Source: a virus
DNA: 33,725 bases
Virus record (IMG/VR): IMGVR_UViG_3300028392_000188
Span: 1-33,725 of that record
Direction: 5' to 3' (one strand)
Positions 1 to 33,725 of this stretch are shown here, piece by piece; the stretch's first letter is position 1, and every line of letters starts with the position of its first letter. A program made the translations under genes and the position numbers. A model generated the notes under the pieces. It made no database searches, was not told the DNA's origin, and worked only from the letters and a program-made list of their open reading frames with translations.

Positions 1-1264
1 CGCAGCCGAAGCACGTCAGGCAGAGATCACAGATCTTGACGCCAAAATCACAAGTGCAGAAGCACTTGAAGCCCGCACCGCAGTAATCAAGGAAGCCCGC
101 GCCGATTCAGGTGTTAAGACTTTCGGTTCTGCTGTAATCGGTAAAGAAGAAATGACCTATGATGTCCGTGGCGAACACTCGTTCGTTCGTGACATGATCG
201 CTGCACAACTGCGCAACGATTCTTCTTCATGGGAACGTCTTGCACGTCACCAGCAAGAAGTTGCTGTCGAGCTTCGCGATGTTTCGCGCACCGACGGTTC
301 AGGTGGAGATTTCGTTCCGCCAATTTACCTGATCAACGAATATGCGGAATTCGCGAGAGCTGCACGAGTAACTGCTAACCTCACAACGAACATGGCCCTG
401 CCCCAGGGGACAGATTCCGTGAATATCCCGGCTATTACAACCGGTAGTCGCACAGGCTTCCAGGCGGCCGACAACTCTTCGACATACGCACCAGTAAGTC
501 CGCGTGACCTTGTCACAGCAACTCGCACCGGTCGCGTTGAGACTATCTCGGGCTTCGAGAACGTTTCAATTCAGCTTGTAGAGCAGTCACCAATTGCAAG
601 CGGCCTAGACCGTTTGATCTTTGGTGATTTGATGGCAGATTATGCGTTGCAACTAAACACCGCTGTTGTTGGAACAGGCGACGGTTCCGCAGGATCACTT
701 AAGGGTTTCGTTACCCTTGGTACGGATACCACTAACGGAATCCCTACAACCTGGACAGAGGCGAGCCCGTCGGCTGTTGGCGCATACGCCGCAATCAACA
801 AGGCAATCTCACAGGTTGTTAACAACCGTTACCGCGATGTAGAAGCAATCGTCATGAGTGCTTCGACATGGTACTGGTTGGCTTCATTGGCTGACTCAAG
901 CAACCGTCCGCTTATCGTTCCGACGAATGGTGCAAACCAGGCGTTCAACGCTAACGGCACGATTGACAAGGCAGGCGCAGCAGCAGGATTGGTTGGTCTG
1001 ATTTCAGGCGTTCCAGTTTATGTTGATGCAACAATGACGAAGGCCTATGGCGCAGGAACAAACCAGTCACCAATCTTGGTTGGTAAGTTCTCTGACTCAT
1101 ACCTGTTCGAAAGTGGCGTGAAGACTCGCGTTCTTCCAGACGTACTGTCAGCAAACCTCACCGTTCGCTTCCAGGTCTACGGATACGCAGCACTCATCCA
1201 CCGCTTCAACAAGTCGGTTTCGACTATCAGCGGTACCGGTGCAATCGCGCCATCAGGTTACTAA
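1..1264 (+). CDS. Major capsid protein, HK97 fold, intron-less allele (5'-truncated by window edge)
   Basis: Forms the icosahedral shell. The reading frame is open from base 2, so the gene began upstream of the window. What is visible corresponds to residues 33-452 of the complete copy at 31286-32923. An Ala/Glu-rich helical stretch (the delta or scaffold-like region) precedes the GGDFVPP motif at about nucleotides 301-322, which is typical of HK97-type capsid proteins. The rest is the capsid body, ending in SGTGAIAPSGY. This copy is uninterrupted: V and P of GGDFVPP are adjacent at 316/317. In the other copy a 279-nt intron sits at that phosphodiester bond. The ATG at 152 is internal, not the start. 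The assignment is secure from context (protease and portal upstream, connector downstream) and motif. Confidence 0.93.
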   Translation, partial: AAEARQAEITDLDAKITSAEALEARTAVIKEARADSGVKTFGSAVIGKEEMTYDVRGEHSFVRDMIAAQLRNDSSSWERLARHQQEVAVELRDVSRTDGSGGDFVPPIYLINEYAEFARAARVTANLTTNMALPQGTDSVNIPAITTGSRTGFQAADNSSTYAPVSPRDLVTATRTGRVETISGFENVSIQLVEQSPIASGLDRLIFGDLMADYALQLNTAVVGTGDGSAGSLKGFVTLGTDTTNGIPTTWTEASPSAVGAYAAINKAISQVVNNRYRDVEAIVMSASTWYWLASLADSSNRPLIVPTNGANQAFNANGTIDKAGAAAGLVGLISGVPVYVDATMTKAYGAGTNQSPILVGKFSDSYLFESGVKTRVLPDVLSANLTVRFQVYGYAALIHRFNKSVSTISGTGAIAPSGY

Positions 1265-1280
1265 TCTAACCTAGTTGTCG

Positions 1281-1317
1281 GCGGGAATCTGGGTTCCTTA
1301 CGGATTCAGATTCCCGC
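1281..1317 (+). other. Stem-loop after the capsid gene
   Basis: GCGGGAATCTG (1281-1291) pairs with CAGATTCCCGC (1307-1317), an 11-bp perfect stem with a 15-nt loop. There is no T run after it, so it is not a classic intrinsic terminator. It may attenuate read-through, or stabilise the 3' end of the highly expressed capsid message. The second copy at 32940-32976 keeps the stem exactly and changes only loop bases, which supports a structural role. Confidence 0.7.
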
Positions 1318-1352
1318 TGCAACACTCACAACAAAAGTTCAGGGGAATGGAC

Positions 1353-1493
1353 ATGGCAAGAATGAAAACGCTATTGCTGGAAGCAGCAATCGCAATCGAA
1401 AAAGTTTTAGAAGTTGGCGGCACCATTGAACAGGTGCTGGATACTTTGGATCAGGTTCAGGACATTCCTAATTCGGGGGTTGAAACCCGATGA
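1353..1493 (+). CDS. Small conserved protein downstream of capsid
   Basis: 46 aa, not recognised. I chose the ATG at 1353 because AGGGGA (1341-1346) lies 6 nt upstream of it; an in-frame ATG at 1347 directly abuts that motif and is less likely. The product is helical, with an Ile/Leu/Val heptad-like centre (LLLEAAIAIEKVLEVGG, then IEQVLDTLDQV), suggesting a short coiled coil. Its stop overlaps the glycosyltransferase start (ATGA). The second copy (33012-33152) differs by a single silent change in the parts compared, so it is under constraint. It could be a small capsid-associated protein; that is inference from position only. Confidence 0.6.
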   Translation: MARMKTLLLEAAIAIEKVLEVGGTIEQVLDTLDQVQDIPNSGVETR

Positions 1494-2239
1494 AAATGTC
1501 TGACAAGGTTTGCATTGGAATGGTCAACAATGGTTGGGTTCAGTCCCAGCTCATGGTTGACATCATCCACATCGCACTAATGAAGAAGTCACATTTTGAT
1601 TCTGTGGTTCAGGTGGCCAACATTGGTTTGACTACCCGTTCACGCAATGTGGTTGTTCGTGAATTCTTGGACAACACAGAAGCCGAATGGTTGTTGTTGG
1701 TTGATTCTGACGAATCGTTGAAACCTGAAGTGTTCCAATTATTGTGCGATACCGCGCATGACAAGGAACGTCCAATTGTTTCGGGTTTAGTATTCGGCGC
1801 GTTCTTTGACAATGATGGTCAACTTCGCCCGGTTCCTACGATTTACAACATGGACGAAGAAGATGGTTTGCAACCGATTGACAATTTCCCAATCAACGAG
1901 CTGATTGAAGTTGACGCGGTTGGCACTGGCTGTGTGTTGATTCATCGTTCGGTGTTGTTAAGAATGCAAGCCAACGCCACACAGAACCAAGGCCCACGCT
2001 GGGCATGGTTCGCCGAGGGTGCTATTGACGGCACATATTTTGGCGAGGATTTGTTATTCAGTAAGCGTTTGCAATCTTTGGGATACAAGATTCATGTTCA
2101 TACTGGCGCGACACTTCCCCACCGAAAAGAGTTTTGGCTCGACCACCGCCATCATGCGGGTTGGTTGCAGACATTCAATCCAAACGCAGGTTCGGAAGTT
2201 CCCCTGGCTTCTGAACCTGCGTCTAATTCCGAGGAGTAA
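1490..2239 (+). CDS. GT-A-fold (family 2-like) glycosyltransferase
   Basis: 249 aa, predicted to transfer a sugar from a nucleotide-sugar donor in the cytoplasm. Visible motifs are the early helix TRSRNVVVREFL, the metal-binding DxD within LLLVDSDE (about residues 70-77), a late GEDLLFSKRLQSLGY segment with the catalytic-type ED pair, and a following TGATLPH. This order matches GT2-like enzymes. It overlaps the preceding gene by ATGA, and an in-frame ATG at 1496 is an alternative start. Sitting between capsid and fibre-like genes, it may decorate virion proteins, or modify host glycans. The substrate cannot be read from sequence. A second, slightly different copy begins at 33149. Confidence 0.8.
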   Translation: MKMSDKVCIGMVNNGWVQSQLMVDIIHIALMKKSHFDSVVQVANIGLTTRSRNVVVREFLDNTEAEWLLLVDSDESLKPEVFQLLCDTAHDKERPIVSGLVFGAFFDNDGQLRPVPTIYNMDEEDGLQPIDNFPINELIEVDAVGTGCVLIHRSVLLRMQANATQNQGPRWAWFAEGAIDGTYFGEDLLFSKRLQSLGYKIHVHTGATLPHRKEFWLDHRHHAGWLQTFNPNAGSEVPLASEPASNSEE

Positions 2240-20580: not shown

Positions 20581-20831
20581 ACCGTTGGTTCATTCAAACT
20601 TTGCACCCGCAACACAAAGACAACCTAGACAAACTGTGGTGGGCAATTGCGCGAGCTGTGAAAATGGGCAGCACCAAAACACAACTGGCGAACTGGCGAA
20701 TCATTGACGTCAACCAAGCAACATGGTTGCTGGGACAAGACGCCAGAGAAACCGCAATCGGAACAGTCTTCGTCTATGCCTACACTGGCATTGACCAAAT
20801 ATCAGAAGTAACAGGACAGGATTATTCGTGA
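20577..20831 (+). CDS. Small hypothetical protein
   Basis: 84 aa from the ATG at 20577 (ATGA overlap). It is mixed alpha/beta with Trp and Lys (MNRWFIQTLHPQHKDNLDKLWWAIARA is split by a polar turn) and ends in FVYAYTGIDQISEVTGQDYS. There is no cysteine cluster or TM segment. It overlaps the GTG start of the PP-loop protein. Function unknown. Confidence 0.5.
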   Translation: MNRWFIQTLHPQHKDNLDKLWWAIARAVKMGSTKTQLANWRIIDVNQATWLLGQDARETAIGTVFVYAYTGIDQISEVTGQDYS

Positions 20832-21655
20832 AACATGTTGTGATGTTTAGCGGTGGGATTGGCTCATGGGCAACCGCCAAACGTGTATCCAAACAACATG
20901 GAACTGACAACATGGTTTTGTTATTTAGCGACGTCAAAGGCGAAAACCCTGACCCAAATGTGGGCGAGGATCCTGACACATACCGATTCATTGAAGAAGC
21001 GGCCAAAAACATTGGTGCCGAATTAGTCATTGTCAAAGACGGTCGAGATATTTGGCAAGTATTTGCAGACAAAAGATTCTTGGGCAATAGCCGTCTGGCG
21101 TCATGTTCTCACGAATTGAAACAGAAACCGGCGCGAAAATGGTTGGATGAAAATTGCGACCCTGAATCAACAATTGTTTATGTGGGAATTGACTGGACTG
21201 AAACACACCGCGTTCCATCCATTGTGCGCAACTACCAGCCATACACAGCACTTGCGCCATTGACCGAACCACCATATTTGGACAAGTCAGAAATGATTGC
21301 CTGGGCAGAATCAGAAGGTTTGAAATCGCCAAGACTTTACGAACTAGGATTCTCACACAACAATTGCGGTGGCGGTTGTGTCCGAGCTGGTCAAGCACAA
21401 TTCAAAAAACTTTTTACAGTAATGCCAGACAGATTTGCTGTCTGGGAACAAAATGAACAAAAAATGCGTGACCTTTTGGGTGATGTGTCAATCTTGACCG
21501 AAGTGGTCAAAGGCGAAAAACAACGACTAACATTGACAACCTTGCGCGAAAGAGTAGAAAACCAACAACCACTGTTTGACGAATTAGATTTCGGCGGATG
21601 TGGCTGCTTTGTAGATGAAGAAATTGACCCAGAATTAGAAAAGGACAAAGAATGA
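20828..21655 (+). CDS. PAPS-reductase-family PP-loop protein
   Basis: 275 aa from a GTG overlapping the previous stop. The PP-loop MFSGGIGSWATAKR (SGGxxS, about residues 8-13) is the ATP-pyrophosphatase signature of the adenine-nucleotide alpha-hydrolase/PAPS reductase group. A middle ASCSHELKQKPARKWL and a later HNNCGGGCVRAGQAQFKKL carry cysteines used in related phage proteins. It ends with another cysteine pair (GGCGCF). Relatives include DndC-type DNA sulphur-modification enzymes and tRNA thiolases, as well as many orphan phage proteins. The substrate is unknown; nucleic-acid modification is the leading guess. Confidence 0.72.
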   Translation: MKHVVMFSGGIGSWATAKRVSKQHGTDNMVLLFSDVKGENPDPNVGEDPDTYRFIEEAAKNIGAELVIVKDGRDIWQVFADKRFLGNSRLASCSHELKQKPARKWLDENCDPESTIVYVGIDWTETHRVPSIVRNYQPYTALAPLTEPPYLDKSEMIAWAESEGLKSPRLYELGFSHNNCGGGCVRAGQAQFKKLFTVMPDRFAVWEQNEQKMRDLLGDVSILTEVVKGEKQRLTLTTLRERVENQQPLFDELDFGGCGCFVDEEIDPELEKDKE

Positions 21656-25335: not shown

Positions 25336-25538
25336 GGCTCTCGGTATCCATTGGCGACGTAATCATCGACTATGAGGATGACCAAACAACGCCGTCGCTT
25401 GATGGACTTGAATCAACTTTGAATCGGATCACTGACGCAGCCATTCACACCTACACCAATACCGAAACAATGTTCGTCTCATTCACACCGGAATCGGAAG
25501 AAACCGAAGAAGAATCAGAGACCGAGGACAATGCCTAA
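25332..25538 (+). CDS. Small acidic hypothetical protein
   Basis: 68 aa, ATGA-coupled to the previous gene and overlapping the HNH gene by 8 nt. Beta-like at the start (RLSVSIGDVIIDYEDDQ), it ends in a strongly acidic tail (ESEETEEESETEDNA). Not recognised. The acidic end could mimic DNA or bind a basic partner; speculative. Confidence 0.5.
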   Translation: MRLSVSIGDVIIDYEDDQTTPSLDGLESTLNRITDAAIHTYTNTETMFVSFTPESEETEEESETEDNA

Positions 25539-25851
25539 GATTGCTTGCCTTAACTGTGGCATCCCTTCAAACGGTTATCGCTGTGAGAATTGCGCTCAAG
25601 CGTATGCGAAGAAGTACGCCTGGAAGCCATCGTCTGCCCAACGTGGCTATGACGCGCAGTGGCGCAAGGTACGCCTACAAGTCTTGGACAGAGACCACTG
25701 GACGTGTTACATATGCAATAAAAAACTTGTTGGAAATGACGCCACTGTGGATCACTTGGTTGCCCTGTCTAAAGATTACGAACAAAGACTGAACCCTGAC
25801 AACCTGCGGGCATGTTGTCGTTCGTGCAATAGTGCTAAGAAGAATAAATAA
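25531..25851 (+). CDS. Free-standing HNH endonuclease
   Basis: 106 aa. The N-terminal zinc motif is CLNCGIPSNGYRCENC. The HNH core follows: RLQVLDRDHWTCYICNKKLV, then ATVDHLVALS (the D-H pair), then NPDNLRACCRSCNSAKK (Asn and the second CxxC). It is located just before the terminase genes, as is typical for HNH proteins that assist packaging in HK97-like phages. It is also the only nuclease in the genome that could act in trans on the intron-less capsid site, so homing by this enzyme is possible, though the packaging role is the better guess. Confidence 0.85.
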   Translation: MPKIACLNCGIPSNGYRCENCAQAYAKKYAWKPSSAQRGYDAQWRKVRLQVLDRDHWTCYICNKKLVGNDATVDHLVALSKDYEQRLNPDNLRACCRSCNSAKKNK

Positions 25852-25969: not shown

Positions 25970-26419
25970 ATGGCAACAAACGGACGGCCACCAAAACCTG
26001 TCGAGCTGAAACGCGCTCAGGGAAATCCCGGAAACCGCAAACTTCCCGATGTGTCAATTGTTCAAACCTTGCCTATGGCGGTAGCAATTCCAGAGCCACC
26101 GGCAGACCTTGGCGAAGAAGGATTGCGTTTGTGGAATCGCTCATGGGATTTCGCAATAACTTGGCTAAGTCCGAACAGTGATATTTCCGCGGTTGAACAT
26201 GCTTGCCGAACAGCCGATTTGTTGATGTTGGCGCAGAACAAATATCGCGCCACGTTGGATTCCGCTGACGGTCGCGTTGTTGTGGCCATGTCTAAAACCA
26301 TGACCGACACTTTCGCAGCCCTAGGCTTTGACCCGACTTCGCGTTCTCGCTTAGGTGTCGCCGAAGTGAAACGCGCCAGTGCGCTTGATAACTTAATCGC
26401 TAAACGTCAGGCGAAATGA
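25970..26419 (+). CDS. terS: Terminase small subunit (P27-like)
   Basis: 149 aa. It starts GRPPKPVELKRAQGNPGNRKLP (GRPxKP and GNPG are hallmarks of P27-type small terminases), followed by a helical body with ADLGEEGLRLWNRSWDF and a C-terminal FDPTSRSRLGVAEVKR. It recognises phage DNA and recruits the large subunit. The ribosome site before the ATG is weak. The stop overlaps the large-subunit start by ATGA. Confidence 0.8.
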   Translation: MATNGRPPKPVELKRAQGNPGNRKLPDVSIVQTLPMAVAIPEPPADLGEEGLRLWNRSWDFAITWLSPNSDISAVEHACRTADLLMLAQNKYRATLDSADGRVVVAMSKTMTDTFAALGFDPTSRSRLGVAEVKRASALDNLIAKRQAK

Positions 26420-27975
26420 TGGCAACCCAGGGGAAACGCAAGGATCAGAATTGGCCGCCACGCTGGCTCACGCCTGTCCCTGCCGCCGACTTGAAACGGT
26501 CGTCCGGCGATGACGTTGTGGATTTCGCTGAAGCGTTGTGCAAAATCACCAAGGACAGTGTTGCTGGTTCGTCGGGTGAACCCTTAATTTTCAGACCTTG
26601 GCAACGTGAATTGACTCGGTCACTGTTTGCTCGCAAGGCTGATGGAACATTACGTCATCGAACGGCCATCGTCGGATTGCCCCGCAAAAATGGAAAATCG
26701 GCGTGGGCGGCGTCTTTGGCTTTGGAACACTTGGTTCTTGGCCCGAATGGTGGCGAAGTTTATTCCTGCGCCGCTGACCGCGCCCAGGCGAAGATTGTGT
26801 TTGATACGGTCAAGGAAATGGTCAGGCTTCAACCTGAACTGTCTGAATTCTTGCAACCGTTTCGTGACGCGATTTACAACCCAAAGAATGGCGCGGTGTA
26901 TCGCGCATTGTCGTCGGAGTCATTCACGAAAGAAGGCTTGTCCCCTACTTTCACGGTATTCGATGAAGTCCACGCGCAACCGAATCGTGAGCTGTGGGAC
27001 GTTCTCGCGTTGGCTTCCGGCGCACGCAATGAACCGTTGATGGTGGGAATCACCACCGCAGGAGTCAAGACAGATTCCACCGGTAAAGATTCAATTTGTT
27101 ATTCGCTATATCAGCATGGCCAGAAGGTCGCACTGGGCGAAATTGTGGATCCAACTTTCTTCATGGCTTGGTGGGAAGCCGCCGACCAGTCGCAGGATTA
27201 TCGCGACGTTGATGTGTGGAAGCAGGCCAACCCTGGCTTCGATGACATTGTGGCAGCGCAAGATTTTGAATCGGTTATTAACCGAACCCCTGAATCAGAA
27301 TTCCGCACTAAGCGATTGAATCAGTGGGTGTCGGTGTCTGACACTTGGCTTCCTGCTGGAACGTGGGAATCTATTGTTGATGATTCTCGCGAGGTCGAGC
27401 GTGGCGCGTCAATCGTTCTAGCCTTTGACGGTTCTTATAATGGCGACTGCACCGCAATTGTCGGCGTGACTGTCGAAGAAAATCCGCATGTGTTCGTTGT
27501 GGAGTCGTGGGAAAAACCTGATGGCGAATCTGCTGAATGGCAGGTTCCAGTTATCGAGGTCGAAGATCGTATTCGTGAAGCGTGCCAGAAATGGCAAGTG
27601 GAAGAAATCGCGTGCGACCCTTACCGCTGGGCAAGAACATTCCAAGTGTTGGAAGATGAAGGTTTGCCGGTGGTGTTGTTCCCACAGTCAGCTTCTCGCA
27701 TGACTCCAGCGACAACTCGCTTCTTTGAAGCGGTAATGAATAAGACCATGACCCAAGATGGCGACCCACGTTTGGCGCGTCATATTGGAAACGCAACAAT
27801 GAAAACAGATTCGCGTGGTTCTCGCTTGGCGAAGGAGTCGCGCAATTCTGTCCGTCGAATCGACTTGGCGGTTGCGTCGGTTATGGGTTTGGAACGTGCC
27901 GCATGGTGGGCGTCTCAAGATGGCGGAATGCCAATGATTTTCGATCCGTGGAGTTTAGGGGAATTTGATGAATAA
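26416..27975 (+). CDS. terL: Terminase large subunit
   Basis: 519 aa (518 from the second ATG at 26419). It powers DNA packaging and cuts the concatemer. The ATPase has Walker A GLPRKNGKS (87-95) and Walker B TVFDE (180-184). The RNase H-like nuclease has Asp residues in LAFDGSYNGDC, ACDPYRW and RRIDLAVASVMG. It is complete and of normal length. It overlaps the small subunit on one side and the next small gene on the other. Confidence 0.93.
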   Translation: MMATQGKRKDQNWPPRWLTPVPAADLKRSSGDDVVDFAEALCKITKDSVAGSSGEPLIFRPWQRELTRSLFARKADGTLRHRTAIVGLPRKNGKSAWAASLALEHLVLGPNGGEVYSCAADRAQAKIVFDTVKEMVRLQPELSEFLQPFRDAIYNPKNGAVYRALSSESFTKEGLSPTFTVFDEVHAQPNRELWDVLALASGARNEPLMVGITTAGVKTDSTGKDSICYSLYQHGQKVALGEIVDPTFFMAWWEAADQSQDYRDVDVWKQANPGFDDIVAAQDFESVINRTPESEFRTKRLNQWVSVSDTWLPAGTWESIVDDSREVERGASIVLAFDGSYNGDCTAIVGVTVEENPHVFVVESWEKPDGESAEWQVPVIEVEDRIREACQKWQVEEIACDPYRWARTFQVLEDEGLPVVLFPQSASRMTPATTRFFEAVMNKTMTQDGDPRLARHIGNATMKTDSRGSRLAKESRNSVRRIDLAVASVMGLERAAWWASQDGGMPMIFDPWSLGEFDE

Positions 27976-28129
27976 GTGGTTCAGCCGTGAAGTTGTCACG
28001 AACGTGACCGAAATTGGTGGAGCATTGTCAGTGACCGTGGGGGTTGGTTTGCTGGCTGGTGCTGCCGCTGCCCTAATCCTTGGAGGGATTTTCGCAATGT
28101 TGTTTTCATATTTGGCAGATAGCCGATGA
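27968..28129 (+). CDS. 53-aa one-TM protein between terminase and portal
   Basis: It starts at the ATG at 27968, inside the last bases of the terminase gene, and overlaps the portal start by ATGA. It has a short charged N-terminus (NKWFSREVV) and one long hydrophobic stretch (LSVTVGVGLLAGAAAALILG, then GIFAMLFSYLA), a membrane helix rich in Gly and Ala. It was found by reading the gap in all frames. Its coupling and membrane character suggest translation. Role unknown. Confidence 0.6.
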   Translation: MNKWFSREVVTNVTEIGGALSVTVGVGLLAGAAAALILGGIFAMLFSYLADSR

Positions 28130-29355
28130 GTATTCTTCGCCGTGGTGCTGGCGATGTCGTCGGCCGTTACCCACAATTCAACAACTATGTCGCGCCACTG
28201 TCGCAACTGTACGGCCAGACACAAGTCACGTCTAGTGCTGGCGAGCGCATTGACGAATGGACAGCGTTAGGCATTTCGTCAGTGTTCTCGGCTGTGTCTA
28301 TTCTTGCCGATTCTGTGGCGTCGCTTCCGCTTCGTGCGTTCAAAATTGTTGACGGTCAGCGCGAGAATATTCCGTTGCCTTCATTGTTGGCTGAACCTGA
28401 TGTGGCTGCCGGAACAAACACTTTCGAATTCATTCACATGGTCATGGTGTCTTTGGCACTTCATGGAAACGCATACATTCACATTGACCGCGACCGAGCT
28501 GGAAACGCAATCGGTTTGGTTCCGCTTCATCCGTACCAAATGCAGGTGCTTCCAACTGGCGACCAGATTGGTCGTCGCTACCTGCACCTAGGCAATGAGA
28601 TCGACCAAGATTCAATTCTTCACTTGCGTTGGATGACTCCGCCACAATCATTGGTCGGTGTCTCGCCACTGATTCAGTCGCGCAACCTGGTTGGAATTTC
28701 GTTGGCCATGGATCGTCACCTAGCCCAGTTCTATGGCGAAGGTGGCACACCGTCGGGCGTTCTAGCAACTGATCAGAAGTTGACCATTGATCAGGCTCGC
28801 GTCATTCAGGGAACATGGGAAGCAACCCACCGACGTCATCGCCGTCCAGCGGTGTTGTCTGATGGTTTGAAGTTCACACCAATCACGACGTCGGCTGCGG
28901 ACGCTCAAATGATCCAGTCTCGCGAACAACTTATTCGCGATATTGCCCGTATCTTCCGAATCCCTGCGCACCTAATCGGCGCAACTGGCGACGGTCAGAC
29001 CTACCAGAACGTCGAGCAAGGTTCAATTAACTTCCTGACCTACACGATCACACCATGGATTCGCCGTCTTGAAATTGCGTTGTCCAAGGTTCTTGCACCT
29101 GGAACCGATGTTGTATTTGACTTCGCTTCGCTTCTTCGCACCGATTCGCTCACTCGCGCTCGCGTGAATTCCATGATGATTAACTCTGGCGCAATGTCAC
29201 CGAACGAATCACGCATGACTGTTGGCCTTGAACCTTACGAAGGTGGCGACGTATTCCACCAGTCGATGGTTGGCAATGTCACCGCTGGTGGCGAATTGCC
29301 GGCACTTGGTCTCGATGTGGATCCAAGCGCACCTGTCATGGGGGTTCTTGAATAA
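28126..29355 (+). CDS. Portal protein (HK97 family)
   Basis: 409 aa, the dodecameric DNA gateway. Family features: WTALGISSVFSAVSILADSVASLPLRAF, then FEFIHMVMVSLALHGNAYIHIDRDR, then the conserved HPYQMQVL turn. The clip/stem region has a FRIPAHLIGATGDGQTYQNVEQGSINFL stretch (both quoted in parts here), and a C-terminal portion with LLRTDSLTRARV. Complete and of normal length. It overlaps the protease fusion start by one base (TAATG). Confidence 0.9.
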   Translation: MSILRRGAGDVVGRYPQFNNYVAPLSQLYGQTQVTSSAGERIDEWTALGISSVFSAVSILADSVASLPLRAFKIVDGQRENIPLPSLLAEPDVAAGTNTFEFIHMVMVSLALHGNAYIHIDRDRAGNAIGLVPLHPYQMQVLPTGDQIGRRYLHLGNEIDQDSILHLRWMTPPQSLVGVSPLIQSRNLVGISLAMDRHLAQFYGEGGTPSGVLATDQKLTIDQARVIQGTWEATHRRHRRPAVLSDGLKFTPITTSAADAQMIQSREQLIRDIARIFRIPAHLIGATGDGQTYQNVEQGSINFLTYTITPWIRRLEIALSKVLAPGTDVVFDFASLLRTDSLTRARVNSMMINSGAMSPNESRMTVGLEPYEGGDVFHQSMVGNVTAGGELPALGLDVDPSAPVMGVLE

Positions 29356-31211
29356 TGGCTGAAACATTCCGACCACCACAGGCAGTTCAGAATAACGCTG
29401 CACGCGCTTTGAAATGGATTGCCGACGGCAAAGCCGGAAGCGGTTTCACCGATACCGGTCGCGCTCGCGCTGTTCAATTAGCCAAAGGCGACGCAGTATC
29501 CGCAGAAACAATCCTTCGGATGTATTCATTCTTTGCTCGTCACGAAGTAGACAAGCAGGGTAAGGGATTCAACAATGGCGACGATGGATTCCCTAGTGCT
29601 GGGCGCGTTGCTTGGGACGCATGGGGTGGCGATGAAGGATTCACCTGGTCGTCAAAGATTAGAGAACAACTGTCGGCGCGTGCCGCATTATTGGAAGGCG
29701 TAAGCATGAACAAGCGCGACGCAATGGAATCTGACGTTGCTGACCTGCCCGAAGAATTAGCGGAATTGTTGGGAACAACTGTTCAATTCTATTTCCGCGC
29801 ACATGGCGCACATTGGAACGTCAAGGGTGCGGACTTTAGCGAATACCACAAACTATTCCAAAAGATTTACGAAACTGCTTACGAGCTGATTGACCCCATC
29901 GCCGAGAACCTGCGCAAAATTGGTTCTGTTGCACCATTCCACCTGGCTGAATTCTCCGCGTTGGGATACTTGCCGGACGCTAATCCTGGTCAAGATCCGA
30001 TGAGCCTAGCCCGCGACTTACTGAATGCAAACGATGTGTTCTTAGATGAGCTGTCAGATTGCTTCGATTGCGCAACCCGCTACAACCAGCAGGGAATCGC
30101 AAACTTCCTGGCTGGTGCTATCGACGGTCAGCAATTCTACAAATGGCAACTAACCGCTTCGCTTGGCGAAGAAGTAACCCAGCCACAACCTGACCCAATG
30201 GACGCTCAAGGTGTCGATGAAGATGACGCCGAAGAAATGCCAATGATGGTTGACGGGATGATGGGCGCATATTCAGCCGACCCAGAAGTTGAAACCGCTG
30301 AAGTTGTTTTGGAATCCGAGGAAGTTGTTTCGGAATCTGATGAAGACCGCGCCGCCATGGCTCGAATCGGCGAAGGTTCATTCGTGTCTTGGGATTCTTC
30401 CGGCGGTCGTGCGCGTGGCAAGGTTGTCAAGGTTGTGACCAAAGGCGCGGCAAGTTCCAGCGAAGGTTACACATTAGAAGCAACCAAAGATTCGCCAGTG
30501 TTCCAGGTTCAAATCTATGCAGCCAAGGGCAACGGATACATTCCGACCGACACAACAGTTGTCCATCGTGCAGACACTTTGACAATCATCACGCCACTAC
30601 CTTCCCCACGAAGCGAGGAAACAATGTTCGAAGAACGAAAGGGTGCATTCGCGTCCGCCGAGCGTGTTACGATGGACGCAGAAGTGCGGTCATTAGATAC
30701 CGGCGACGGATCCTTGAAGATTGGTGGCTACGCCGCACAATTCAACAAGGAAGCCACTGGTCTTTCATTCCGTGAAGTTATTGCACCAGGCGCATTCTCG
30801 CGTTCGTTGCAGTCCGGCGAACCTGTTTATTTGCTAGTGAACCATGACACCAACGGAATCCCTTTGGCGTCCACAGCTTCGGGAACATTAAATCTTTCCG
30901 AAGATGAAGTTGGTTTGCGCATGGAAGCCAACTTGGATCCTGCAAATCCGAAAGCCCAAGAATTGTATTCGGCTATCAGTCGCGGCGATATTGCAAAGAT
31001 GTCGTTTGCGTTCACTGTTGCCCCCGAAGGTTCTAGCCGTTCGGAAGGTTTGCGCACGTTGACCGACCTGAATCTGTTTGAAGTTTCAGCGGTCACTTGG
31101 CCTGCATACAATGACACCGCTTTGGGTGCACGTTCCGCCGAGGACGCTCAAGCCGAAGCCCTTGAATTGCGAAAGCGACTTCTTCAACTCAAGCAGAAGT
31201 TCGCTAAGTAA
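29355..31211 (+). CDS. Prohead protease fused to Dps-like and other domains
   Basis: 618 aa with four parts. (1) Residues 1-115: a small domain with ARALKWIADGKAGSGFTDTG, common next to phage portal genes. (2) About 125-270: a Dps/ferritin-like helical domain with HWNVKG (H153), H165, and D180/E184 in IDPIAENLRK. Four of the five ferroxidase-ligand positions of Dps are kept; the fifth (Asp) is Gln169. (3) About 338-412: a beta domain resembling the hypervirulence-associated TUDOR/DUF2945 unit (SFVSWDSSGG, then GKVVKVVT). (4) About 424-618: the HK97 prohead protease with H497 (NHD) and S550 (KMSFAF), which processes the capsid. Internal ATGs with ribosome sites (29706, 30624) may give separate products. 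Confidence 0.82.
   Translation: MAETFRPPQAVQNNAARALKWIADGKAGSGFTDTGRARAVQLAKGDAVSAETILRMYSFFARHEVDKQGKGFNNGDDGFPSAGRVAWDAWGGDEGFTWSSKIREQLSARAALLEGVSMNKRDAMESDVADLPEELAELLGTTVQFYFRAHGAHWNVKGADFSEYHKLFQKIYETAYELIDPIAENLRKIGSVAPFHLAEFSALGYLPDANPGQDPMSLARDLLNANDVFLDELSDCFDCATRYNQQGIANFLAGAIDGQQFYKWQLTASLGEEVTQPQPDPMDAQGVDEDDAEEMPMMVDGMMGAYSADPEVETAEVVLESEEVVSESDEDRAAMARIGEGSFVSWDSSGGRARGKVVKVVTKGAASSSEGYTLEATKDSPVFQVQIYAAKGNGYIPTDTTVVHRADTLTIITPLPSPRSEETMFEERKGAFASAERVTMDAEVRSLDTGDGSLKIGGYAAQFNKEATGLSFREVIAPGAFSRSLQSGEPVYLLVNHDTNGIPLASTASGTLNLSEDEVGLRMEANLDPANPKAQELYSAISRGDIAKMSFAFTVAPEGSSRSEGLRTLTDLNLFEVSAVTWPAYNDTALGARSAEDAQAEALELRKRLLQLKQKFAK
30615..30626 (+). promoter_or_regulatory. Internal ribosome site and start for the protease domain
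   Basis: GAGGAA (30615-30620) lies 3 nt before an in-frame ATG (30624, residue 424) exactly at the border between the TUDOR-like and protease domains. Translation from here would give a 195-aa stand-alone protease, the normal size for HK97-type proteases. A second candidate (GGAAGG 29693-29698, ATG 29706) lies before the Dps-like domain. Confidence 0.45.
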
Positions 31212-31285: not shown

Positions 31286-32923
31286 ATGTCCATGTTGGAC
31301 AACCTACGCGAAGCCCGCGCCACCGCGCTTGCTGACGCAACGGCGTTGCTATCTGGCGAGGCAACAGTGGAAGCACTGGACGCAGCCGAAGCACGTCAGG
31401 CAGAGATCACAGATCTTGACGCCAAAATCACAAGTGCAGAAGCACTTGAAGCCCGCACCGCAGTAATCAAGGAAGCCCGCGCCGATTCAGGCGTTAAGAC
31501 TTTCGGTTCTGCTGTAATCGGTAAAGAAGAAATGACCTATGATGTCCGTGGCGAACACTCGTTCGTTCGTGACATGATTGGCGCACAACTTCGCAACGAT
31601 TCTTCTTCATGGGAACGTCTTGCACGTCACCAGCAAGAAGTCGCTGTTGAATCACGCGATGTATCACGCACCGATGGTGCTGGTGGAGATTTCGTTTATG
31701 GCGAGAGCCAGGGACGCTTCGTAGCGTAAGTTACGAATGAACATCACGCTGTATCGGTGAACCCCACCAAATTTATTTGGGGAATACCGAGGGAACCCAC
31801 GCTAGGGACTCCGTAGAGACTACACGCGAGACAACCTTGATAGGTGCAATACTGGTAGCGAAGCCAGGTTGCAACTAAGGTTGAAGATATAGTCCGAACT
31901 AACACAATGGAAAAGTGTTAGAGGTTGTCAGAAATGCGCAACCCGGCAACATAAATGTTGCTAGTAACAAATTTGCCCCCAATCTACCTCATCAATGAAT
32001 ATGCTGAATTCGCTCGTGCTGCTCGCGTAACCGCGAACCTCACAACGAACATGGCACTTCCAGCCGGTACTGACTCAATCAACATTCCTGCAATCACAAC
32101 CGGTACCCGTACCGGTTTCCAGGCTGCTGATAACTCAACAACCTACGCACCAGTAAGCCCACGCGATCTAGTAACTGCTACTCGCACCGGTCGTGTTGAA
32201 ACAATTTCTGGTTTCCAAAATGTGTCAATCCAGCTTGTTGAGCAGTCACCAATTGCTGGCGGTCTTGACCGTCTAGTATTCGGCGATCTTATGGCCGATT
32301 ACGCACTGCAACTAAACACCGCAGTTCTTGGCACTGGCGATGGCTCAGCAGGATCACTCAAGGGTTTTGTTACCCTTGGCGCTGATACTACAAACGGCAT
32401 TCCTACAACGTGGACTGAAACAACTCCGTCCGCTGTTGGCGCTTATGCTGCTATCAACAAGGCAATTTCGGGTGTTGTTAGCAACCGTTTCCGCGATGTT
32501 GAAGCAATCGTTGTTAGCCCGTCAACATGGTACTGGTTAGCCGGTCAGGTTGACTCTGCAAACCGTCCGCTTATCGTTCCAACAAATGGTGCAAACCAGG
32601 CGTTCAACGCTAACGGTGTCATCGACAAGCCAGGTGCAGCAGCAGGAATGGTCGGTCTGATTTCAGGCGTTCCAGTTTATGTTGACGCAACCATGACAAA
32701 GACATACGGCGCAGCAACAAACCAGGCACCAATCGTGCTTGGAAAGTTCAGTGATAGTTACCTGTTCGAATCGGGACAGAAAACAAGAGTTTTGCCGGAT
32801 GTTCTGTCGGCAAACCTCACTGTGCGTTTCCAGGTTTACGGTTACGCAGCACTAATCCACCGCTTCAACAAGTCGGTTTCGACTATCAGCGGCACCGGTG
32901 CAATCGCACCTTCAGGTTACTAA
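31286..32923 (+). CDS. Major capsid protein, intron-containing allele (join 31286..31696, 31976..32923)
   Basis: 452 aa after removal of the intron. AGGAGTAA (31276-31283) is 2 nt before the ATG. Exon 1 encodes the N-terminal delta/scaffold-like region (LDNLREARATALADATALLS, coiled coil) up to GGDFV (V137). Exon 2 resumes at P138 (PPIYLINEYAEF) and runs to the stop. Joined, the GGDFVPP motif is restored, with codons GTT|CCC CCA intact. Without splicing, translation runs 10 residues into the intron and stops (TAA at 31727), giving a 147-aa delta-domain peptide. An ATG at 31955 inside the intron is not a credible start. The capsid body has diverged from the copy at 1-1264, while flanks are nearly identical. 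Confidence 0.9.
31697..31975 (+). ncRNA. Group I self-splicing intron, 279 nt, in the major capsid gene
   Basis: It interrupts the capsid gene between GTT and CCC. The 5' exon ends in U and the intron ends in G, the group I rule. GGCGAG (31700-31705) can pair with the exon end TTCGTT, including a G-U at the splice site (P1). Further elements: P2 ACGCT/AGCGT (31714-31727), P4 CGGT/ACCG (31755-31789), P5 CCAAA/TTTGG (31767-31780), P7 GACTA (31818-31822) with TAGTC (31890-31894) inside the conserved AAGATATAGTCC, P8 CAACCTT/AAGGTTG (31832-31883) with a nested stem, P9 CTAACAC/GTGTTAG (31899-31921), and two more 3' hairpins. No P7.1/P7.2 insertion and no open reading frame for an endonuclease. 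The precise absence of 279 nt in the other copy confirms the boundaries. Confidence 0.93.
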
Positions 32924-32939
32924 TCTGACCTAGTTGTCG

Positions 32940-32976
32940 GCGGGAATCTGGATACCTTACGGATTCAGATTCCCGC
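32940..32976 (+). other. Stem-loop after the capsid gene, second copy
   Basis: The same 11-bp stem as at 1281-1317, with substitutions only in the loop (GGATACC instead of GGGTTCC around the turn). Conservation of the stem between strain variants supports function in RNA. Confidence 0.7.
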
Positions 32977-33011
32977 TGCAACACTCACAACAAAAGTTCA
33001 GGGGAATGGAC

Positions 33012-33152
33012 ATGGCAAGAATGAAAACGCTATTGCTGGAAGCGGCAATCGCAATCGAAAAAGTTTTAGAAGTTGGCGGCACCATTGAACAGGTGCTGGA
33101 TACTTTGGATCAGGTTCAGGACATTCCTAATTCGGGGGTTGAAACCCGATGA
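33012..33152 (+). CDS. Small conserved protein downstream of capsid, second copy
   Basis: 46 aa, the counterpart of 1353-1493 with the same AGGGGA site and the same sequence apart from a silent change (GCA to GCG, Ala). It shows that this little gene is under purifying selection while the adjacent capsid gene diverges. Confidence 0.6.
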   Translation: MARMKTLLLEAAIAIEKVLEVGGTIEQVLDTLDQVQDIPNSGVETR

Positions 33153-33725
33153 AAATGTCCGACAAGGTTTGTATTGGAATGGTCAACAATGGTTGGGTTC
33201 AGTCTCAGCTCATGGTTGATATTATCCACATCGCACTAATGAAGAAATCACATTTTGATTCTGTGGTTCAGGTGGCAAACATTGGTTTGACTACCCGTTC
33301 ACGAAATGTGGTTGTTCGTGAATTCTTAGACAATACCGAAGCCGAATGGTTGTTGTTGGTTGATTCTGACGAATCGTTGAAACCTGAAGTGTTCCAATTA
33401 TTGTGCGACACCGCGCATGACAAGGAACGTCCAATTGTTTCAGGTTTAGTGTTCGGCGCGTTCTTTGATAACGACGGTCAACTTCGACCAGTTCCCACGA
33501 TTTACAACATGGACGAAGAAGATGGTTTGCAACCGATTGACAACTTCCCAATCAACGAGCTGATTGAAGTTGACGCGGTTGGCACTGGCTGTCTGCTCAT
33601 TCATCGTTCGGTGTTGTTAAGAATGCAAGCCAACGCCACACAGAACCAAGGCCCACGCTGGGCATGGTTCGCCGAGGGTGCTATTGACGGCACATATTTT
33701 GGCGAGGATTTGTTATTCAGTAAGC
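33149..33725 (+). CDS. GT-A-fold glycosyltransferase, second copy (3'-truncated by window edge)
   Basis: The first 192 residues of the glycosyltransferase also seen at 1490-2239, cut by the end of the window within the GEDLLFSK region. Only scattered, mainly third-position differences separate it from the first copy (for example GTGTTG versus CTGCTC codons in CVLIH/CLLIH). It includes the DxD motif. It is the same gene reached after one full genome turn, not a paralogue. Confidence 0.85.
   Translation, partial: MKMSDKVCIGMVNNGWVQSQLMVDIIHIALMKKSHFDSVVQVANIGLTTRSRNVVVREFLDNTEAEWLLLVDSDESLKPEVFQLLCDTAHDKERPIVSGLVFGAFFDNDGQLRPVPTIYNMDEEDGLQPIDNFPINELIEVDAVGTGCLLIHRSVLLRMQANATQNQGPRWAWFAEGAIDGTYFGEDLLFSK

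Follow-up and report, generated by a model that had tools for sequence, protein, structure and literature searches.

The stretch of DNA analysed here (the window) is the whole of virus record IMGVR_UViG_3300028392_000188, which comprises 33,725 bases and is classed as linear. The genes follow the order usual in tailed phages: terminases, portal, S78 protease, major capsid protein, head-tail and tail genes, and then replication genes. A WhiB-like gene is present in the window, and all of the annotated phages with a related capsid protein (57 of 57) infect mycobacteria; the host is thus probably an actinobacterium. The window also contains a phosphoadenosine phosphosulfate reductase-like gene (20828-21655), likely an auxiliary metabolic gene. 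The major capsid protein gene appears at both ends of the record, as an intronless copy on the left (allele A) and as an intron-bearing copy on the right (allele B).

1-1264, plus strand: allele A of the major capsid protein gene, its 3′ 93%, without intron (PF05065 Phage_capsid, 2.1e-17; phrog_2263 major head protein, 4.3e-43)
262-1183, plus strand: diverged tract as found in allele A, differing from B by 20.8% (edge support 197-268 and 1168-1203)
1265-2066, plus strand: downstream flank of allele A, with a hairpin, a small ORF and the start of a glycosyltransferase-like gene (1490-2239)
25531-25851, plus strand: HNH nuclease (phrog_144, 1.2e-23; PF01844, 3.7e-9), upstream of the terminase genes
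25970-26419: terminase small subunit
26416-27975: terminase large subunit
28126-29355: portal
29355-31211: S78 protease (Peptidase_S78, 2.9e-40), upstream of the capsid gene
31286-31696, plus strand: allele B capsid exon 1, 137 codons, ending ...GGDFV
31381-31491, plus strand: left overlap, 111 bases identical to 1-111
31642-32842, plus strand: diverged tract in allele B, intron counted (tract coordinates moved to the B copy)
31697-31975, plus strand: group I intron of 279 nt with no endonuclease ORF (Rfam RF00028, 51.9 bits, narrowly above the cut-off of 50)
31976-32923, plus strand: allele B capsid exon 2, starting PPIYLINEY...
32924-33725, plus strand: downstream flank of allele B, its glycosyltransferase frame cut by the record end
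33599-33725, plus strand: right overlap, 127 bases identical to 1940-2066

The capsid protein is of the HK97 type. Pfam settles the family through the Phage_capsid profile; in addition, an S78 protease is encoded upstream and the gene is present in one copy in 16 relatives. A search for solved structures matching the capsid protein by sequence found none. The start codon and the first 95 nt of the gene are present only in the B copy (31286-31380). In both alleles the stop codon is followed by a very stable hairpin (1264-1340 and 32923-32999; -34.8 kcal/mol), perhaps a terminator or a processing site, with small A/B differences near its loop. Besides its S78 domain, the protease ORF has matches, both upstream of that domain, to a ferritin-like domain (residues 134-271) and to a TUDOR-like one.

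BLASTN comparison of the window with itself paired 1-316 with 31381-31696 (94.9% identity) and 317-2066 with 31976-33725 (87.9%). Once 31697-31975 is removed, 1-2066 and 31381-33725 align with zero gaps and 229 mismatches. The earlier note had proposed this alignment as a check on a sharply diverged capsid body lying between nearly identical flanks, and the mismatches are indeed concentrated in the capsid gene. We located the edges of the tract by a likelihood fit with two breakpoints, taking as support the breakpoints within 2 log units. The fit raised the log-likelihood from -719.5 to -634.0, so that the tract is not a product of chance, and it divided the differences into 5 of 261 positions on the left (1.9%), 192 of 922 in the tract (20.8%) and 32 of 883 on the right (3.6%). 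The tract spans most of the mature shell part of the capsid protein. Divergence had been said to begin at about 199, and this position does fall inside the support interval for the left edge, although the best-fit start is 262 and a single difference already occurs at 112, ahead of those at 199, 201, 202, 211 and 262. Likewise, the genes that follow are quieter, as the note had seen, but the differences do not vanish: they amount to 1.8% in 1264-1489 and to about 5% in 1490-1940, mostly synonymous (about 4% over 1264-1940 as a whole), and the two copies are identical only in the final 127 bases. The flanks are therefore quiet, yet part of their identity at the extreme ends is forced by the way in which k-mer contigs end, and the comparison of the two strains covers the overlap.

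The position of the right end is informative about how the record was assembled, since it lies exactly 127 bases past the last A/B difference. Both 127 and 123 are usual final k-mer sizes. Neighbouring A/B differences lie at most 116 bases apart, which at k = 127 keeps each branch in a single continuous phase. Where a circle contains a two-branched bubble, a de Bruijn contig that traverses each strain's branch once is expected to end exactly 127 bases past the last difference. This account is exact at one end only, the left overlap being of 111 bases and not of 127. As a circular map predicts, the glycosyltransferase frame interrupted at 33725 resumes at 2067. The records of relatives (19-34 kb) carry a single capsid gene in 16 of 16 cases, at varying positions, and exact 123-base end overlaps were found in two of the three relatives' records tested; the group thus assembles as circles. 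Records G038 (L378/L379) and G042 (L380/L381) have exact 123-base end overlaps though classed as linear, and are probably complete circular assemblies.

We strongly infer a circular map of about 31.7 kb, intron included, of which the record represents a single turn, its overlapping ends each carrying a different strain's allele. Two co-occurring strains would supply A and B, their coexistence and phase resting on the logic of the assembly, and the assembler would have closed the circle by taking the branch of allele A on the left and that of the intron-bearing allele B on the right. The overlap, the tract and the 127-base right end all support the earlier description of two strain variants joined end to end. 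As it stands the record is misleading, since users would take a single polymorphic gene for two capsid genes or for a terminal repeat. Another way to obtain such ends would be a chimeric join, in which the A branch came from a more distant phage that matches this genome exactly over stretches of at least about 111-127 bases, across which the assembler passed from one genome to the other. Such shared stretches would suffice, and flank identity is partly guaranteed by the contig ending. However, 1264-1940 is only about 4% different though the assembly forces no match there, and the branch is continuous in phase. Relative L003, which is about 11-20% diverged outside the quiet stretches, shows what a clearly more distant genome looks like; by comparison A and B look like close strains, and we regard a chimeric join as unlikely.

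The silent sites tell of the history of the tract. Over positions 200-1261 dN was 0.071 and dS 0.93 (dN/dS 0.08), while dS was 0.02 to the left of the tract and 0.20 to its right. Because silent sites are diverged, the common ancestor of the tract must be older than that of the flanks, which points to recombination and not to selection on the protein. A third allele, carried by relatives L001-L003, has no intron and shows 92% protein identity. Within the tract its distance from A, and likewise from B, is almost that between the two, but its similarity switches along the gene: across 199-899 the intronless L003 differs by 15-22% from A and by 7-21% from B. At 199-316 the third allele is closer to B (6.8%, against 15.3% from A), and at 1100-1263 it is closer to A (4.9%, against 12.8% from B). 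The capsid gene is thus a mosaic of several ancestries. The suggestion of a recombined capsid cassette is supported both by the diverged silent sites and by these mosaic relatives.

Abrupt breaks of this kind are also found between genomes that both lack the intron. Relatives L006 and L027 differ by at most about 6% from 301 to about 4650 and by about 20% beyond a point that lies inside the capsid gene, and L049 and L078 show a break at about 3000, again inside the capsid gene. Capsid recombination in this phage group does not, then, need the intron. In such intronless replicate pairs the N-terminal codons are identical and the third positions of the body differ by 20-23%. We considered that a quiet left flank might simply reflect general conservation of the N-terminus, and rejected this idea since, over 2,775 pairs, N-terminal codons were not generally quieter than the body. 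The tract between A and B is two-sided and lies within one gene, whereas the breaks in the intronless replicates are mostly one-sided. A donor for allele A or B was not found, the nearest relatives being usually 5-20% away by segment; exact searches with each allele's own 26-27-mers gave zero matches in viral_contigs, which are weak zeros given that this set may lack near relatives.

We consider it probable that the window represents the circular genome of an uncultivated phage with two capsid alleles that arose by homologous recombination among relatives, and that the intron is a separate presence/absence polymorphism. Co-infecting relatives would recombine through conserved stretches, replacing or shuffling the mature part of the capsid gene while the flanks stay alike; selection would remove changes harmful to the shell, so that nearly all A/B differences would be kept silent. 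The known mosaicism of phage virion genes likewise shows identity changing abruptly inside a gene when related genomes are compared, as is seen here also in intronless pairs. The present case differs from the usual ones in that a single contig holds both alleles, in the form of an assembly overlap.

The element that interrupts allele B is a new member of a known intron family. Comparison with the intronless copy makes its junctions unambiguous: exon 1 ends with GATTTCGTT, the intron ends in G and exon 2 begins with CCCCCAATC. As in group I introns, the last base of exon 1 is U, the last base of the intron is G and P1 contains a U.G pair. P1, read from the sequence, pairs exon positions 31690-31696 (UUUCGUU) with 31700-31706 (GGCGAGA). 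In a consensus fold with 26 relatives, 33 of the 64 pairs change on both sides, and the window keeps 59 of the 64. From its structure and its spliced relatives, this group I intron is predicted to be self-splicing. The spliced reading frame stays open and runs collinearly with allele A; the intron would interrupt the B gene in DNA, remove itself from the mRNA and restore a normal capsid protein. It is inserted in the conserved motif GGDFV^PP, a site uninterrupted in all 91 of the relatives that have both exons, and an Rfam search over 50 relatives' records found no intron above the cut-off. One 12-bit Rfam match, downstream of the L040 capsid gene, was dismissed as noise. A hidden intron was suspected in L112, L136 and L148, which start within 31 bases of exon 2, but their leading bases are ordinary exon. 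Exact searches with the intron core also gave zero matches in viral_contigs, zeros that are weak for the same reason as those above, and searches of phage and plasmid DNA with the region returned no match beyond the intron core.

The intron had been placed near the left edge of the tract, and it is inside the tract but some 50-120 bp from that edge. This location invites the explanation, raised in the earlier note, that the tract moved with the intron: the intron would have homed from an intron-bearing relative into an A-like capsid gene and the repair of the break would have copied about 1 kb of donor exon too. T4 introns are known to co-convert flanking exon (PMC2988022), and introns in the distant capsid genes L250 and L226 occupy the same codon boundary, so the site can be invaded. 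In the approximately 60 bp to the right of the intron, L003 shares 8 sites with A against 2 with B, which would fit a short conversion in B. Nevertheless, almost as much divergence is seen in the intronless L003 over this tract, which is therefore not confined to the intron-bearing allele. On the left side of the intron L003 agrees with B at 12 of 14 informative sites, so the copy replaced there is A, the one without an intron. Switches of similarity near 505, 840, 880 and 1080 are as strong as that at the intron, where A/B divergence does not peak; in fungal mitochondria, exon divergence peaks within 70 nt of the intron (PMC5378118). Nor do the 279 nt hold an endonuclease ORF. A search of 30 window proteins found just one HNH or homing-type endonuclease, at 25531-25851; this gene lies elsewhere and, from its position, is probably associated with packaging. 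Finally, the intronless pairs L006/L027 and L049/L078 show the same abrupt breaks. The system does resemble T4 td-type homing (PMC2988022) in that a phage protein gene exists in alleles with and without a group I intron, but here the intron is without an endonuclease and the tract is not centred on it and is present in intronless alleles. Co-conversion of the tract is hence improbable, although a short conversion of about 60-70 bp directly to the right of the intron is possible. We conclude that the two alleles arose by ordinary recombination among phages, without the intron as its cause.

Two other explanations fare worse. A true duplication would place two diverged capsid copies in one genome, as a terminal redundancy or as a second gene, and there is a precedent in distant relative G066, which has two adjacent capsid genes. 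In the window the neighbouring genes are repeated too and the copies lie at the record ends, and each of the 16 closer relatives has one copy. Terminal repeats of one genome are kept identical by replication, so true ones would not have diverged. This explanation is very unlikely. Diversifying selection on the shell surface with no recombination, also offered in the earlier note, would account for the concentration of differences in the mature part of the capsid but is already refuted by the present values and is extremely improbable, since dN stays far below dS over the tract, dN/dS never rises above about 0.35 in 150-base windows with usable dS, surface selection does not diverge silent sites in the way seen here, and the amino-acid changes are mostly mild (S/T, V/I, A/S, A/G).

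The nearest matches of the intron in annotated phages are mainly introns of Cluster J mycobacteriophages. One of these, in the capsid gene of LittleE (Cluster J, Omegavirus, JF937101), is spliced in infected cells according to RT-PCR and protein sequencing (PMC3706429). It interrupts a homologous major capsid gene (about 38% identity) at the same conserved motif, its core is about 74% identical over 80 bases, and the terminal bases are the same, U for the exon and G for the intron. In contrast, when its junction is re-read with a U required at the end of exon 1 and a G at the end of the intron, the LittleE insertion falls at GG^YAVPP, nine bases to the 5′ side of the site in the window; the LittleE intron is about 0.8 kb long and contains an endonuclease ORF, and the phage is cultured and has a genome of 109 kb (PMC3706429). 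The tail-gene intron of BAKA/Optimus (Cluster J), which is spliced (PMC3706429), belongs to the same family, is of similar length (265 nt) and also lacks an endonuclease, but the gene that it interrupts is a minor tail gene. The window's intron extends capsid-gene introns from the Cluster J mycobacteriophages, where they are proven, to an uncultivated group of small-genome phages.

A core-pattern search of viral contigs uncovered further capsid introns. Four of them (L245, L178, L173 and L170) are at the LittleE site, and those of L250 and L226, of the same kind, are at the codon boundary used in the window. A third site, within the V codon of TDSV (GT^C), was pieced together from the 5′ half in L249 (5290-5960) and the 3′ half in L179 (6697-7732). 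With insertions at three sites, capsid introns of this family are recurrent. In the intron tree the window's intron was not placed with those of L250 and L226, on a long branch with poor support. One may speculate, although we rate it as quite unlikely, that small group I introns have a hotspot in the GGxxVPP motif, where the mature shell protein begins, that they entered it several times independently (three sites in one gene family), and that a free-standing nuclease cutting there drives both intron spread and capsid recombination. The two adjacent capsid genes of G066 (40,260 bases) lie at L178 209-3389, and one of them has an intron at the LittleE site. The capsid introns at about 620-1367 in L226 and about 4320-5090 in L170, of some 740-770 bases, could hold an endonuclease gene.
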